From NCBI GenBank assembly GCA_944358405.1, contig CALVQX010000025.1, forward strand, positions 1 through 43,952: 43,952 bases of DNA. The letters are read 5' to 3'. Of this stretch, positions 19,810 to 26,291 are shown in pieces; positions within the stretch are counted from its first letter, which is position 1; every line of letters begins with the position of its first letter. A program made the translations under genes and the position numbers. This DNA comes from an uncultured Bacilli bacterium. GTDB taxonomy: Bacteria; Bacillota_I; Bacilli_A; RF39; UBA660. A model generated the notes under the pieces. It ran no database searches. It worked only from the letters and a program-made list of their open reading frames with translations, and was not told the origin of the DNA.

Positions 19810-22626
19810 TTAGAAATATGTATCAGCACATGCACGATTTATTGTTGATGTATTTGAAGTCTTGCCAGCATTTTTTGCTGAAATAGCGACACTATCATTT
19901 TGATAGTAAAGATGGTTGTCATTTTGGCCATTTAAGCAGCTTCTAATATTGGTGCATGATAATGAAACTCTGCCACTGATACAGACATGAGAAGTTTGAT
20001 CATTCCATACACCATAACTTGCTTCTTTTTTATTACCATTAGATACAGTTAACCTAATCATACTATTACCATGCACACGTACACGACTTTGATCATTTGC
20101 ACAAATAATACATCTATCATCAGTTGCTTTACTTATAGAAATCGAACCACCGGTCATATGAAATCTCGCTTTATTTCCTGAAAGAACTACTCCGCTTCCT
20201 CCTAAATCACCAGTTGAAGTAGAACTAATAGTTCCTCCCGTCATATTAAATCTTCCTTGATAAACACTGACTCCTCTGGAATATTTTGATCCGTTAGATC
20301 CTGAACGAAGTGTTCCACCACTCATATTAAACCTTCCATCTTCTCTTACATATACTGCTGAATTATAGTTACGTGCACCATTTTGGGATGTATACAGTGC
20401 CGAATGAACTATAGTGCCCTGGGATAGATTTAAAGTTCCGTCTACTATTATGGTATTCGTTGGTCCAGAATTGGCAGTAGAAGTCGTTTGAATTGTACCA
20501 TTAGAATTAATATTTAAGGTGCTATTTTTCTCGACATAAATACGCCTAGAACTTAACGTAAGTGTATGTCCTTGCAAATTTAATGTAACATTTTTATTTT
20601 TGAGTTCTGGGTTGCTGCCATCAGTCAAATTTGCTGTAAGATATATGGTTCCACTAGATGTATTATTAAATGCATCTTCTAATGTTTTATAGTATCCACC
20701 ATAGTCATTTTTATAATAAGCCTCATACAGTTTTGAAGATGTTGTATTGCAAGTTGCTCTATTTCCAGCATTATCATATACTTCGGTTACCGTTGATTTT
20801 AGCTCGCCAAATTCTGTCAGTTTATCGTCTTGATATGTTGTTTTGACACAACCACTTCTTCCATCACTACATGTTACTTTCCGATTTACTGATTTTGTAC
20901 TACTTCCTGCCGGATAGTAAACAGTATAGGAAGACACATTGCAAGTAGGGTTGGTTTTATCAATTTTTACTGTTTGATTGTCAGGGCAAGTAGTGCAATG
21001 TCCAACATTGTCACAAACCGTTCCTGGAGAAACATTTGTAGAATTTGTTTCCCATGTAATTGTATAAGAAGCATTATCCTTACATCCACTACCGCTATCA
21101 CTACATTTTCCTGTTAATGTTCTACTACCATTTGTCCAGGCATTATTTCCTCCGCTCGATGTACACGTTGGTGCATTTTTATCCACTTTTACTGTTTGAG
21201 TTGCGCATGATGTTGTATTTCCAGCATTATCTTGGATAGTACCTGGACTAATAGCATCATTTGTGGTTTTATTTATTTTTTTACTAACTTCTGTAGTTTT
21301 ACATCCACTACCGCTATCACTACATTTTCCTATGATTGTTACGTCATTGGCCGTCCAATTATTACTACCACCAGAAACATTACAGGTAGGCTTCGTTTTA
21401 TCAATTTTGAATATAGAAGCGTTGGACCAACCACTTGCTGTTCCTGCTTTATTTACAGCTCTAAGGCAATAACTTTTTTTCATATCGTTTTGATAAGATG
21501 TACCGCTAATAATATTTCCAGTCTTCTTTTTGCAGTCTTCTGAGTATTCATAATGGTCGATCCCAGAATAAGAACTAGATGAAAAATTTCCCCACCATAA
21601 AGTTTTATTCGTCCAATTTGTATCAGTCTTTATGTTTCCTGAACTAGAATCATACCGAATTTTTGAAGTTGGTATACTTGGTGTATCTTTATCGATATAT
21701 ACATCCACTTTACATTCCGTAGAATTTCCTGATTTGTCTTTAATCGTTATAGTTCCTTCTTTTGTATTTGTTTTAAATGTTTTAGAGTAACTTTCTCTTT
21801 CACATCCGACTCCATCATCAGAACAAGAAACGGTAATTTTTCTTTCCCCTGTAGTCCATTTTTTACTGCTACCTATAATGTCTTTGCACAATGGTGGAAT
21901 AGTATCTTTTAATTCTTTCGTCTGTGATTTTTTTGAAACATTTCCATAAATATCTGTAGCAACAACAGTAATTTTTATTTTCGATGGAACATATTTTTTC
22001 AAAGATATCGTGACCTTAACTTCTCTTTTTAATTTTGCCGAAACGGTTCCTGTATTCTTCACTTCTACTCCATCTTTATAAACGATATAACTATAACTAA
22101 TAATTTTGTCCGGATCGGTCATTGTTACTTCTGCTTTTGCTACATTAACGTCATTATTAAAGTCTATTTCTATTTCTGGACCATTTGCATAAGTTTCTTT
22201 TTTGCTTGTATAATTTGGACAAACTAAGTAGGTCATGTAACTATAATCGTTTTCTGAGTATTTGAAAATTCTGACATAGCTTTCATCCAAGTCACATGCT
22301 TTTTTACCATAATCTACCACTTCGCTAGTCAAATATTTTTTATCCTTTAATCTTTTCAAAGGAATCTTGGTACTCCTACCGATCACTTTTGGTAATGCAT
22401 TTCTATTATCTTGAACATAACTTTGCCCAACTAATACTATATTTTTATTTAAAGAACTATAGTAATCCTTTTCCAACTTATCTAACCATCTAGTAGCGGC
22501 AAGAATAGCGATAGACATTAACATTCCTAAAATCGCTATTGCCACTATTAATTCTACTAAACTAAACCCATTTCTTTTTTTACCAAACAGCATAACACTC
22601 TCGAATGTCAATATACTTTTTGACAT
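19810..22626 (-). CDS. Giant prepilin-like surface protein with Ig-like and beta-helix regions
   Basis: The 938-residue protein starts with a type IV prepilin signal: a basic leader ending KKRNG, then FSLVELIVAIAILGML (about residues 21-36), the expected prepilin-peptidase site with Glu at +5. About residues 150-245 resemble an Ig-like/bacterial cadherin-like domain. Residues about 250-640 hold repeated cysteine-bearing modules, with CSDSGSGC twice and DKTxPTC or DKNAPTC linkers, probably disulfide-linked. From about 640 to the end, recurring NMSGGT/NMTGGT turns suggest a right-handed beta-helix. Ordinary pseudopilins are 100-250 residues. The start has GAGGAG eight bases upstream. No pilus assembly genes are in the window. 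Role unknown, probably adhesive (inference). Confidence 0.85.
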   Translation of the reverse strand: MSKSILTFESVMLFGKKRNGFSLVELIVAIAILGMLMSIAILAATRWLDKLEKDYYSSLNKNIVLVGQSYVQDNRNALPKVIGRSTKIPLKRLKDKKYLTSEVVDYGKKACDLDESYVRIFKYSENDYSYMTYLVCPNYTSKKETYANGPEIEIDFNNDVNVAKAEVTMTDPDKIISYSYIVYKDGVEVKNTGTVSAKLKREVKVTISLKKYVPSKIKITVVATDIYGNVSKKSQTKELKDTIPPLCKDIIGSSKKWTTGERKITVSCSDDGVGCERESYSKTFKTNTKEGTITIKDKSGNSTECKVDVYIDKDTPSIPTSKIRYDSSSGNIKTDTNWTNKTLWWGNFSSSSYSGIDHYEYSEDCKKKTGNIISGTSYQNDMKKSYCLRAVNKAGTASGWSNASIFKIDKTKPTCNVSGGSNNWTANDVTIIGKCSDSGSGCKTTEVSKKINKTTNDAISPGTIQDNAGNTTSCATQTVKVDKNAPTCTSSGGNNAWTNGSRTLTGKCSDSGSGCKDNASYTITWETNSTNVSPGTVCDNVGHCTTCPDNQTVKIDKTNPTCNVSSYTVYYPAGSSTKSVNRKVTCSDGRSGCVKTTYQDDKLTEFGELKSTVTEVYDNAGNRATCNTTSSKLYEAYYKNDYGGYYKTLEDAFNNTSSGTIYLTANLTDGSNPELKNKNVTLNLQGHTLTLSSRRIYVEKNSTLNINSNGTIQTTSTANSGPTNTIIVDGTLNLSQGTIVHSALYTSQNGARNYNSAVYVREDGRFNMSGGTLRSGSNGSKYSRGVSVYQGRFNMTGGTISSTSTGDLGGSGVVLSGNKARFHMTGGSISISKATDDRCIICANDQSRVRVHGNSMIRLTVSNGNKKEASYGVWNDQTSHVCISGRVSLSCTNIRSCLNGQNDNHLYYQNDSVAISAKNAGKTSNTSTINRACADTYF
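21080..21331. repeat. 33-base direct repeat inside the prepilin-like gene
   Basis: The sequence at 21080-21112 is repeated exactly at 21299-21331, 219 bases (73 codons) apart. It encodes the GKCSDSGSGCK motif. Identity at the DNA level in the middle of more diverged modules suggests recent duplication or recombination between modules. Confidence 0.85.
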
Positions 22627-23026: not shown

Positions 23027-23896
23027 ATGACAAATGATGCTTTATATTTAACGATCGCAAAAAAATTGAATTCTAATAATTTCTTTGATTTTATGGAACG
23101 GTATAATTTAACGTATAATGAGATGTTAGGAATTATTCAGTTTGGTATTTCTTCTAATATTTCTTTAGTTCAATGTTGCTATTTAAAAGAACTTTTAAAA
23201 AAAATGCAATGTTTGTTTAAAATTGAGGACGAGAAGATTGGAATTGTTGCTGATACACATATTGGTAGTCCCTTTATGAACTGGGATTATATTCATAGAG
23301 CGTATCAATTATTTGAAGAACAAAATATTAATACAGTCTTGCATCTAGGAGATATGTTTGACGGATACTGTGGAAATACTATTCCTAAAAATTCTAAAAA
23401 ACGAAATCAACTAGTTTTTACATGCTATGAACAAATATTGGATTTTGCGAAGAATTATCCTAATGGTTTTGATACTTTTGTTATTTTAGGGAATCATGAT
23501 GTACGACTTCATTTTCTTGGCATTGATGTTTGGGATTATCTCTTAGAAAAAAGAACCGATGTTTTTCCTTTAGGATATGGGAGTTGTTTATTGCAATTTG
23601 GTGACTTCCCATTGTTTTTGGAGCATCCTACAGACAGTAATATTTTGTCACTTGCTAGTTCTTCTGATCAAATAGTTTTGCGAGGACATTCTCATATCTT
23701 TCGATTAGATAAGAACATTGTTAATATTTCTTCTTGTAGTAATTTAGGCTTTTCTTATTCTTATTCTGATGCGATCGGTACTCCTGGATGTGCAATTCTT
23801 TCTAGAGATAAACACAAATTATTTGTAGATGGTTATATTTTCAGAAAAGATAGTACCACCAAAGAAATTCAGTACACTTTAAAAAAGAAAAATTGA
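23027..23896 (+). CDS. Calcineurin-like metallophosphoesterase
   Basis: The protein of 289 residues has the ordered metal-binding motifs of the family: GIVADTHIG (about residue 76), LHLGDMFDGY (about 106), VILGNHDVR (about 152) and RGHSHIF near residue 223. These bind two metal ions and hydrolyse phosphoesters; the substrate (nucleotide, nucleic acid or other) is not predictable. About 70 residues of helical sequence precede the catalytic domain and may be a small DNA-binding-like or regulatory domain. The start has GGTGAT three bases upstream. The gene ends in TGA, which shows TGA is a stop in this genome. Confidence 0.85.
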   Translation: MTNDALYLTIAKKLNSNNFFDFMERYNLTYNEMLGIIQFGISSNISLVQCCYLKELLKKMQCLFKIEDEKIGIVADTHIGSPFMNWDYIHRAYQLFEEQNINTVLHLGDMFDGYCGNTIPKNSKKRNQLVFTCYEQILDFAKNYPNGFDTFVILGNHDVRLHFLGIDVWDYLLEKRTDVFPLGYGSCLLQFGDFPLFLEHPTDSNILSLASSSDQIVLRGHSHIFRLDKNIVNISSCSNLGFSYSYSDAIGTPGCAILSRDKHKLFVDGYIFRKDSTTKEIQYTLKKKN

Positions 23897-23932: not shown

Positions 23933-24913
23933 TTATTTTATTCTCAATATTTGCCATACTCTAGCATTCATCAAACTAGATATTTCTACCGGTCCTAAAG
24001 TTGTAAATTTGAAGTTGTCATTCGGTCCACTGCCATTACTTCCACTTTGTCTTCCTGCATCATACCATTTTCCATTTCCTGCATATACATTTGTATGTTG
24101 CTGATTATACCATAAAACAACATCTCCTGCTTGTAGGTCTCCACTGCTAATTAAACTAGATGCTGTTTTATTTTCCCCATCTATATAATACATTTTTTCT
24201 TGCATTTTTTCTTTTGCATCGTTTCTGTAACTGATAAAATTATTGCTGTTTCTATAGGCTTTATAGAAACGATCTCCACTATCTAAAACTCCTACATCGA
24301 TTAATCCCCATACAATATATAATGCACAGTTTGTAGACTTTGTAGAGGAATCTGCTTGCGAAAATGTATTTCTAGTATTGCTATTACTATAAGTCCATTT
24401 ATTTCCGTTATTTTTATCTTGTATTACTTTGTGAGACATCGTGCTTAAAGAGTTTAAAAAAGCCTCTACTGTTGCAGTACCACCAATAGTTTCATTAGAA
24501 CCATCTTCAGTATCCCCAGCCGATCCTTCATCATAATCATCAGGATTCGTTAAAAAATCCTTTTTTTGATCTTCGTTTTGCTCAATATAATTTGAATGTT
24601 CTAGTGCTACATTTTCTAGATTATTCCAACAATTTGCTAAAGAAAAATTATCATTTACTAAAAGCATGGTCAGGTTTATAATCACAGGAAGAATAAATAA
24701 GATAACAGCAGCAATTAAGCAATTCTTAATTTTAGCTTTTATTTTTTTATCTTCTGGATTCATCATGGCTTTGGTAAAATGTAAAACGAGACTTATAATT
24801 AATAATATTGGAGCTATTATCTGCATTATGGTAAGTGCAGATTTACAAATTCTTAATATATTAATTATTCCAGGATCAGAACATGTTTCTGAAATATCTA
24901 ATAAGTAAATTAT
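23933..24913 (-). CDS. TrbC/VirB2-like membrane N-terminus fused to CHAP/NlpC-type amidase
   Basis: The N-terminal part has two hydrophobic segments preceded by CSDPGIINILRI, a pattern typical of TrbC/VirB2-like pilin domains. An acidic Ser/Gly-rich linker follows. Next comes a cysteine peptidase/amidase domain with TNCALYIVWGLIDVG (nucleophile Cys), LQAGDVVLWY, and QHTNVYAGNGKWYDAG (catalytic His), as in CHAP or NlpC/P60 wall hydrolases. The first ATG (24826) cuts off CSDPGII and has no ribosome binding site. An AAAGGAGATGA site at 24920-24930 points instead to ATA 24913 or ATT 24910, giving about 326 residues, unless one T of TTTT was gained. No other conjugation gene is present. Confidence 0.75.
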   Translation of the reverse strand: MIYLLDISETCSDPGIINILRICKSALTIMQIIAPILLIISLVLHFTKAMMNPEDKKIKAKIKNCLIAAVILFILPVIINLTMLLVNDNFSLANCWNNLENVALEHSNYIEQNEDQKKDFLTNPDDYDEGSAGDTEDGSNETIGGTATVEAFLNSLSTMSHKVIQDKNNGNKWTYSNSNTRNTFSQADSSTKSTNCALYIVWGLIDVGVLDSGDRFYKAYRNSNNFISYRNDAKEKMQEKMYYIDGENKTASSLISSGDLQAGDVVLWYNQQHTNVYAGNGKWYDAGRQSGSNGSGPNDNFKFTTLGPVEISSLMNARVWQILRIK

Positions 24914-25202
24914 ATAAAATCATCTCCTTTACAATTAGTTACCAAGTAATATTATTATAACTTTATTCAGATATCTTTTCAACAATAAAGCTAATAATAT
25001 TGATATACTCTCAACCTTCTACTCTTTTTTACTTTGCTTTTATTTTGACAATTTATGCAATTGTTGGTTTATTATTAGTACCAATAATAGTTTTTTTAAT
25101 ACATTTTTTATTGTGTTTTTATTTATATCATTCCCTCAACTTTTTATTTATTTTTTTCTATTCTTCGTTATAATATTATTAAGATTAATATAGGAGGAGA
25201 AA
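24914..25202. other. Region upstream of metK
   Basis: This stretch of 289 bases carries the ribosome binding site of the TrbC-like gene (24920-24930, minus strand), a TTGACA (25045-25050), a near-perfect palindrome ATTATTAGTACCAATAAT (25071-25088) where the matching -10 would be, and a second -10, TATAAT, at 25169-25174 near metK. I see no SAM riboswitch fold. Confidence 0.45.
25071..25088 (+). promoter_or_regulatory. Palindromic operator candidate upstream of metK
   Basis: ATTATTAGTACCAATAAT is an inverted repeat with one mismatch, 20 bases after a TTGACA. A protein bound there would cover the -10 of that promoter. Confidence 0.35.
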
Positions 25203-26291
25203 ATGAAAAAATATTTTACAAGTGAAAGTGTTACTGAAGGTCATCCTGATAAAATTTGCGATAAAATTAGTGATAAAATTTTGGATGAAGCTTTATTGCA
25301 AGATCCTGATAGTCATATGGCTATCGAAGCTACTATCAAAAATCGAACGGTCTTTCTTTATGGAGAGGCAATGACAAAGGCTAATTTAGATTACGAAAAA
25401 ATTGTTCATTGGGTTTTAAAAGATATTGGTTATGGTGAAAATTTTGAAGTGATTCAAAGAATTTCTAAACAGTCTTTTGAAATTGGCTCTGCGGTAAAAA
25501 AAGAAAATACTTGTGCAGGAGATCAAGGAATTATGTTTGGATTTGCTTGCTCTGATACTAAAGAATATATGCCCTTACCTATTATGCTTGCTAATCAATT
25601 GGCAAAGAAACTTACGGAGATAAGGAAATCTAATCCAAATAGCTTTTTACTTCCAGATGGAAAAACTCAAGTAACTGTAGAATATGAAGATAACTTTCCT
25701 ACTAGGGTTGATACTGTTATTATTGCTGCTCATCACAAACCTGATATTTCTCAGGAAGAGCTAACAGAATATATTATTTCTAATGTCATACTAGAAGTGA
25801 TCGAGACAAAATTTATTGATTCTAATACAAAATTTTTAATTAATACAGGAGGTCCTTTTACGATCGGTGGTCCTGATGCTGACAGTGGTACTACTGGGAG
25901 AAAGATTGTTGCTGATACGTATGGAGGCATGGGACGAGTTGGTGGAGGTTGCTTTAGCAGCAAAGATCCTAGTAAAGTTGATAGGAGTGCCGCATATTAT
26001 GCACGTTATGTTGCTAAAAACCTTGTATTACATCATTTGGCCGATAAAGTTGAAATTGGTTTAGCTTATGCTATTGGTCAAGAATTTCCACTTCATGTTT
26101 CTATTGAAACATTCGGAACAGAAAATGTTTCTCTTGCAGAAATTCAACAATATATTCAAGATCATTTTTGCTTTTCCGTCTCTCATATTATTGAAGAATT
26201 AGATTTAAAAAAACCAATTTATTATTCTTTAAGCGCCTATGGACATTTTGGAAGAGCAGAATTTTCCTGGGAGCAAGAAAAATCAAACTAG
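25203..26291 (+). CDS. metK: S-adenosylmethionine synthetase
   Basis: MetK joins methionine and ATP to make SAM, here also the cofactor of the radical SAM enzyme. The motifs are GHPDKICDKISD (residues 14-25), CAGDQGIMFGFA (about residue 103), and GGPDADSGTTGRKIVADTYGG with GGGCFSSKDPSKVDRSAAY (about residues 218-262). The protein is 362 residues, a little shorter than the usual 380-400, and differs from typical enzymes at several motif positions (GGPDADSG for GGPQGDAG, GGGCFS for GGGAFS). Essential residues appear kept. AGGAGGAG lies before the start. It is monocistronic or reads into the kinase-like gene 40 bases downstream. Confidence 0.95.
   Translation: MKKYFTSESVTEGHPDKICDKISDKILDEALLQDPDSHMAIEATIKNRTVFLYGEAMTKANLDYEKIVHWVLKDIGYGENFEVIQRISKQSFEIGSAVKKENTCAGDQGIMFGFACSDTKEYMPLPIMLANQLAKKLTEIRKSNPNSFLLPDGKTQVTVEYEDNFPTRVDTVIIAAHHKPDISQEELTEYIISNVILEVIETKFIDSNTKFLINTGGPFTIGGPDADSGTTGRKIVADTYGGMGRVGGGCFSSKDPSKVDRSAAYYARYVAKNLVLHHLADKVEIGLAYAIGQEFPLHVSIETFGTENVSLAEIQQYIQDHFCFSVSHIIEELDLKKPIYYSLSAYGHFGRAEFSWEQEKSN

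Follow-up and report, generated by a model that had tools for sequence, protein, structure and literature searches.

A gene for a pilin-like/NlpC-P60-like protein, on the minus strand of the stretch of Bacilli DNA that we analysed (43,952 nucleotides, hereafter the window), probably begins at the near-cognate codon AUA at position 24913, to which a strong Shine-Dalgarno (SD) sequence would direct the ribosome. Its translation is expected to be weak and IF3-sensitive. We consider this the best explanation overall and give it a probability of about 0.6.

Start signals of the gene

The gene occupies 23933-24913 on the minus strand and is flanked by genes of the opposite strand (Table 1). Its frame is open over 328 codons without an internal stop, ends at 23933, and is closed upstream by an in-frame TGA at 24922-24920, three codons before ATA 24913. 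On the minus strand, the start region reads ...GTAAAGGAGATGA TTT TAT ATA(24913) ATT(24910) TAC TTA TTA GAT ATT TCA GAA ACA TGT TCT GAT CCT GGA. As the sequence-only reading had stated, direct reading of this strand finds no ATG, GTG or TTG in the gene frame between that TGA and the ATG at 24826, and ATA 24913 and ATT 24910 are the only near-cognates in frame behind the SD. A further ATG, at 24923, is one base off the gene frame, and its own frame, read by eye, stops at 24876.

Table 1. Features of the gene and its surroundings (positions in the window)
Feature	Position	Strand	Remarks
S-adenosylmethionine synthetase gene	25203-26291	+	divergent neighbour
Promoter-like TTGAAA-17-TATAAT	24954..24982	-	11/12 consensus matches
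Shine-Dalgarno AAAGGAGATGAT	24919..24930	-	one mismatch to AAAGGAGGTGAT; duplex with AUCACCUCCUUU -11.3 kcal/mol
Out-of-frame ATG, 15-codon frame, overlaps SD	24876..24923	-	direct reading; sole SD abuts ATG
ATA, likeliest start codon	24911..24913	-	9 nt from AGGAGG register; aligned with ATG of L108 MIYLLD; spacing statistics
ATT, alternative start codon	24908..24910	-	12 nt from AGGAGG register; 9 residues to conserved Cys
Internal ATG, rejected start	24824..24826	-	no SD; shortens hairpin common to paralogues
Coding sequence, pilin-like/NlpC-P60-like protein	23933..24913	-	326 residues counted from ATA; Pfam matches
T4SS-pilin-like transmembrane hairpin, residues 25-80	24674..24841	-	PF18895 E 0.0024
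NlpC/P60-like cysteine hydrolase domain core, residues 236-287	24053..24208	-	PF00877 E 0.0067
Metallophosphoesterase gene	23027-23896	+	convergent neighbour

The strong SD that had been noticed at 24920-24930 is borne out by pairing statistics. The motif AAAGGAGATGA is located at 24930-24920 (minus strand), and the longer AAAGGAGATGAT is complementary to the whole 16S tail but for one base, the tail presumed for pairing being AUCACCUCCUUU rather than one taken from the source genome's own 16S. With this tail, the leader forms a duplex of -11.3 kcal/mol, versus +0.8 kcal/mol for the 20 nt before ATG 24826, as expected from the earlier claim that this first ATG has no ribosome binding site. Pairing at least as strong as that of the leader was found at 16/6400 random positions and upstream of 8/2000 random ATGs; of the 97 sampled genes, 19 reach it at their best start. 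Two observations count against the proposed start. Predicted folding of the leader covers part of the SD. The strict extended-SD patterns AGGNAT, AGGNGT, GGGNAT and GGGNGT of PMC13009471 are absent from the 20 nt before the start, as direct reading of TGTAAAGGAGATGATTTTAT shows; pairing with the 16S tail resumes at TGAT following one mismatch.

The promoter-like site upstream of the SD is also uncommon for its position. When the 282-nt intergenic stretch is shuffled with its dinucleotides preserved, a match of 11/12 appears in 8/1000 cases, and in 2/1000 within the last 80 nt. This position-specific test of the single 11/12 site constitutes the promoter evidence and is the only informative test, promoter-like sites showing no excess across the whole region (9 found versus 9.8 expected). 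The promoter and the SD, two independent signals, both indicate a start near 24913.

Homology leads to the same place. Over its first 98 residues the protein is similar to three paralogues, two from contig C28 (E 5e-32 and 7e-29) and a third from contig C24 (E 4e-23). Counted from ATA, these matches begin at residue 2 or 7, and therefore the stretch upstream of ATG 24826 is part of the protein. The C28 and C24 paralogues themselves start at an ATG behind an SD. The sequence-only reading had held that the N-terminus cut off by ATG 24826 is conserved, and it is indeed common to the paralogues. Its central proposal, an AUA or AUU start, is supported by the promoter, the SD, the missing canonical start and the N-terminal homology, all of which place the start at 24913/24910. 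Translation from ATG 24826 itself, the first in-frame ATG, which would leave 297 codons, is the least probable of the explanations we weighed: besides the poor duplex energy, the 29 codons preceding it are homologous to paralogue N-termini, and the protein would lack the beginning of its hairpin.

Choice of codon and rival explanations

The two near-cognate codons are distinguished by SD spacing and by alignment. Measured from the AGGAGG register, ATA lies at 9 nt and ATT at 12 nt. In a sample of 80 genes with an SD of at least 5 nt, the modal spacing is 7, with 9 nt in five and 12 nt in none; among 60 homologues with an SD of at least 5, a spacing of 9 nt occurs in seven and 12 nt again in none. 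The paralogue L003 also has a spacing of 9. Furthermore, the ATG ATT TAT TTA TTA GAT of the homologue L108 aligns with ATA ATT TAC TTA TTA GAT in the gene. A start at AUU 24910, the next codon behind the same SD, is unlikely on these spacings, and yet it has points in its favour. ATT 24910 falls in the alignment column of the ATG in the paralogues L002 and L003 and in L008, and with it the conserved Cys would be preceded by 9 residues, a number more frequent than any other in the 70 homologues (out of 116) that we chose by hand for matches reaching near the N-terminus (21/70, versus 7/70 with the 10 residues that correspond to ATA). AUU is moreover a known start codon, named for infC of Escherichia coli (PMC5472188) and cvfC1 of Staphylococcus aureus (PMC13009471). 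In short, SD spacing favours ATA and distance to the conserved Cys mildly favours ATT; in our judgement the odds are perhaps three or four to one for ATA.

The proposed start codon is an exception both among its homologues and within the 129 kb of the genome that were sampled. A canonical start behind an SD of at least 4 nt is present at 116/116 homologous loci (112 ATG, 2 GTG and 2 TTG, as chosen by the script), under a lenient rule that accepts any canonical codon with an SD of at least 4 nt lying in the frame no further than 25 codons inside the match. This census left out the window gene and duplicate loci (L001, L007, L045-L047), the weak own-genome matches L005 and L006, the further loci L028 and L096, and some listed places. 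The gene's non-AUG codon is common to none of the 116 homologues, so its codon class is not conserved and there is no conservation to indicate selection for the codon. When 129 kb of the 1.32 Mb genome was scanned for a near-cognate behind an SD of at least 6 nt with no canonical start bearing an SD, one of 116 frames of at least 120 codons qualified, the gene itself; the list from this strict scan also held four genes in which ATA/ATT merely precedes an SD-bearing ATG. A loose scan returned many SD-like sites followed by ATA, ATT or ATC, mostly within genes. The genus is represented by one genome only, the source genome. The search of genome contigs gave eight loci whose similarity lies mainly in the C-terminal hydrolase domain and whose N-termini differ, and no homologue was found in the search of viral contigs.

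This rarity bears on another explanation, namely that the start codon was recently lost, leaving the gene silent or decaying, or that the base at this codon is wrong in the draft contig through faulty assembly or consensus calling. The canonical start kept in all homologues would fit such a loss or error, as would the single genome available for the genus and the state of the assembly (72 contigs, 90% complete). Against it, the frame runs for 326 codons without a stop or frameshift and the promoter and SD are intact, which would still be compatible with a very recent loss. We hold loss, strain polymorphism or base error to be unlikely, if the foremost among the alternatives to an AUA start. 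The sequence-only reading had offered a different alternative, an extra T in the TTTT run; on this view error or slippage has put one T too many at 24919-24916, and ATG 24923 is the true start. Direct reading confirms that with one T fewer this ATG is in frame. However, the SD abuts it (the base after AAAGGAG is its A) and there is no other SD upstream, whereas nearly all the sampled genes and homologues keep 3-11 nt between SD and start; the product would also carry 14 residues before the conserved Cys, compared with 13 or fewer in 66 of the 70 homologues. A run of four T is short for slippage. This alternative thus proved weak, and we consider it very unlikely.

A pilin-like hairpin joined to a putative hydrolase

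The product appears to be a membrane protein in which a pilin-like hairpin carries an NlpC/P60-like peptidoglycan hydrolase, with enzymatic activity inferred. It resembles T4SS_pilin (PF18895) and NLPC_P60 (PF00877) through weak matches to both and differs from their recognised members in lying below both curated cut-offs (18.4 bits against 26.6, and 16.8 bits against 23, respectively); the paralogue L004 reaches 33.1 bits against PF18895. The designation "TrbC-like/amidase" in the sequence-only reading is consequently better replaced by T4SS-pilin-like and NlpC/P60-like, with the same reservation about cut-offs for both domains. Residues C196 and H273, the putative catalytic pair going by the NLPC_P60 family, are invariant together with other columns across six aligned sequences, in an alignment where the row of L037 starts one codon past its ATG. 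There is also a sequence match to the NlpC/P60 structure 8er5 (E 0.0069). A structure model with a moderate mean pLDDT of 61 shows two long helices (14-51 and 56-86), and we relied on it for the helical hairpin only. Foldseek with this model returned a phage baseplate protein as the best hit (E 0.002) and a weak match to NlpC/P60 8er5 (E 0.84).

In the paralogues, the same PF18895 hairpin is followed up not by the NlpC/P60-like domain of the gene's protein but by a GDSL-lipase, C39-peptidase-like or CHAP domain. The one genome thus encodes four or more proteins that share this transmembrane hairpin and differ in the hydrolase fused to it (the window gene, L002 and L003 on C28, and L004 on C24), the hydrolases being NlpC/P60-like, GDSL lipase, C39-like peptidase and CHAP. 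Many relatives in the order give matches with frames of similar length. The pilin-like hairpin looks like a reusable membrane-anchor module. One narrow literature search found no paper on pilin/NlpC fusions, and we make no claim of absence from it.

Two of the fusions lie in a cluster on C28 (L049:4029-16754) with glycosyltransferases, Alg14- and GtrA-like proteins, two phosphodiester glycosidases (NAGPA) and one polysaccharide deacetylase. This gene content points to an envelope-glycan locus, rather than to an evident conjugative element. Elsewhere in the window, at 19810-22626 on the minus strand, the list of open reading frames includes a protein of 938 residues whose N-terminus, GFSLVELIVAIAILGMLMSIAIL, is prepilin-like and which contains a long region of Cys-rich repeats.

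Relation to known near-cognate starts

Near-cognate start codons are known for IF3 genes, according to PMC5472188, and AUU is named there as the start of infC in E. coli. As a positive control, we read infC at 30 loci (L055-L084) in the same bacterial family, from 58 genomes searched and 55 with an IF3_N match. At all 30, the codon with the best SD is a near-cognate (ATC in 14, ATA in 9 and ATT in 7), the predicted start behind GGAGGTG, and no canonical codon there has an SD longer than 6 nt. In the source genome, the predicted infC start is ATC, 8 nt from the AGGAGG register and behind GGAGGTG. Judging from these predictions, AUH codons behind a strong SD would be an established start type in the family. 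The pilin-like gene is similar to infC in this combination of codon and SD. In contrast to infC, which has a near-cognate at every locus read and feeds back on IF3, the gene has homologues that use AUG and a product without evident link to translation.

Other precedents lie outside infC. In S. aureus, PMC13009471 reports from ribosome profiling that infC, ccpN and citZ start at AUA and cvfC1 at AUU; reporters of ccpN, citZ and cvfC1 gave about 10% of AUG, with ccpN reaching up to 30% in rich medium, and the AUA of citZ is limited to one strain lineage. As in ccpN, citZ and cvfC1, the start proposed here is an AUA or AUU directed by a strong SD, and just as the citZ codon belongs to one strain lineage, the codon of our gene is seen in one genome. 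The S. aureus starts are backed by ribosome profiling and reporters, whereas the present gene is known from sequence and departs from the strict extended-SD pattern described in that paper. In Streptomyces, a GTC start places sigR under IF3 repression (PMC5472188). Like sigR, the gene would have a non-canonical start outside the translation machinery; unlike in sigR, where the codon is another (GTC) and IF3 control is experimental, such control is inferred for the gene. Near-cognate starts being already known in infC, ccpN, cvfC1, citZ and sigR, the pilin-amidase gene is probably an added member.

The AUA start can be pictured as follows. A sigma-A-type promoter at 24982-24954 would yield an mRNA whose leader is about 30 nt long and on which the strong SD would position the 30S subunit with AUA in the P site, and the initiator tRNA would read this codon with a third-position mismatch. 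By analogy with the S. aureus starts and sigR, translation is expected to be weak, perhaps about 10-30% of that from AUG, and IF3-sensitive. IF3 would reject such complexes, making the gene responsive to the IF3 level, as may be the case for infC in the family. The codon probably originated in an AUG-to-AUA change specific to the lineage. An adaptive role for AUA is distinctly unlikely: in that case the pairing of strong promoter and SD signals with a weak codon checked by IF3 would let the hydrolase, and with it wall cutting, follow the state of the translation machinery via free IF3, related enzymes having kept canonical starts.

For annotation, gene finders limited to ATG, GTG and TTG would start the gene at 24826, so that its membrane hairpin loses the N-terminal part, and in this family they are likely to misplace the predicted AUC, AUA or AUU start of infC. 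If the AUA start is real, a surface hydrolase joins the short list of bacterial AUH-start genes outside infC, and a simple screen suggests itself for others: a strong SD, no canonical start, and homologues that extend further upstream.
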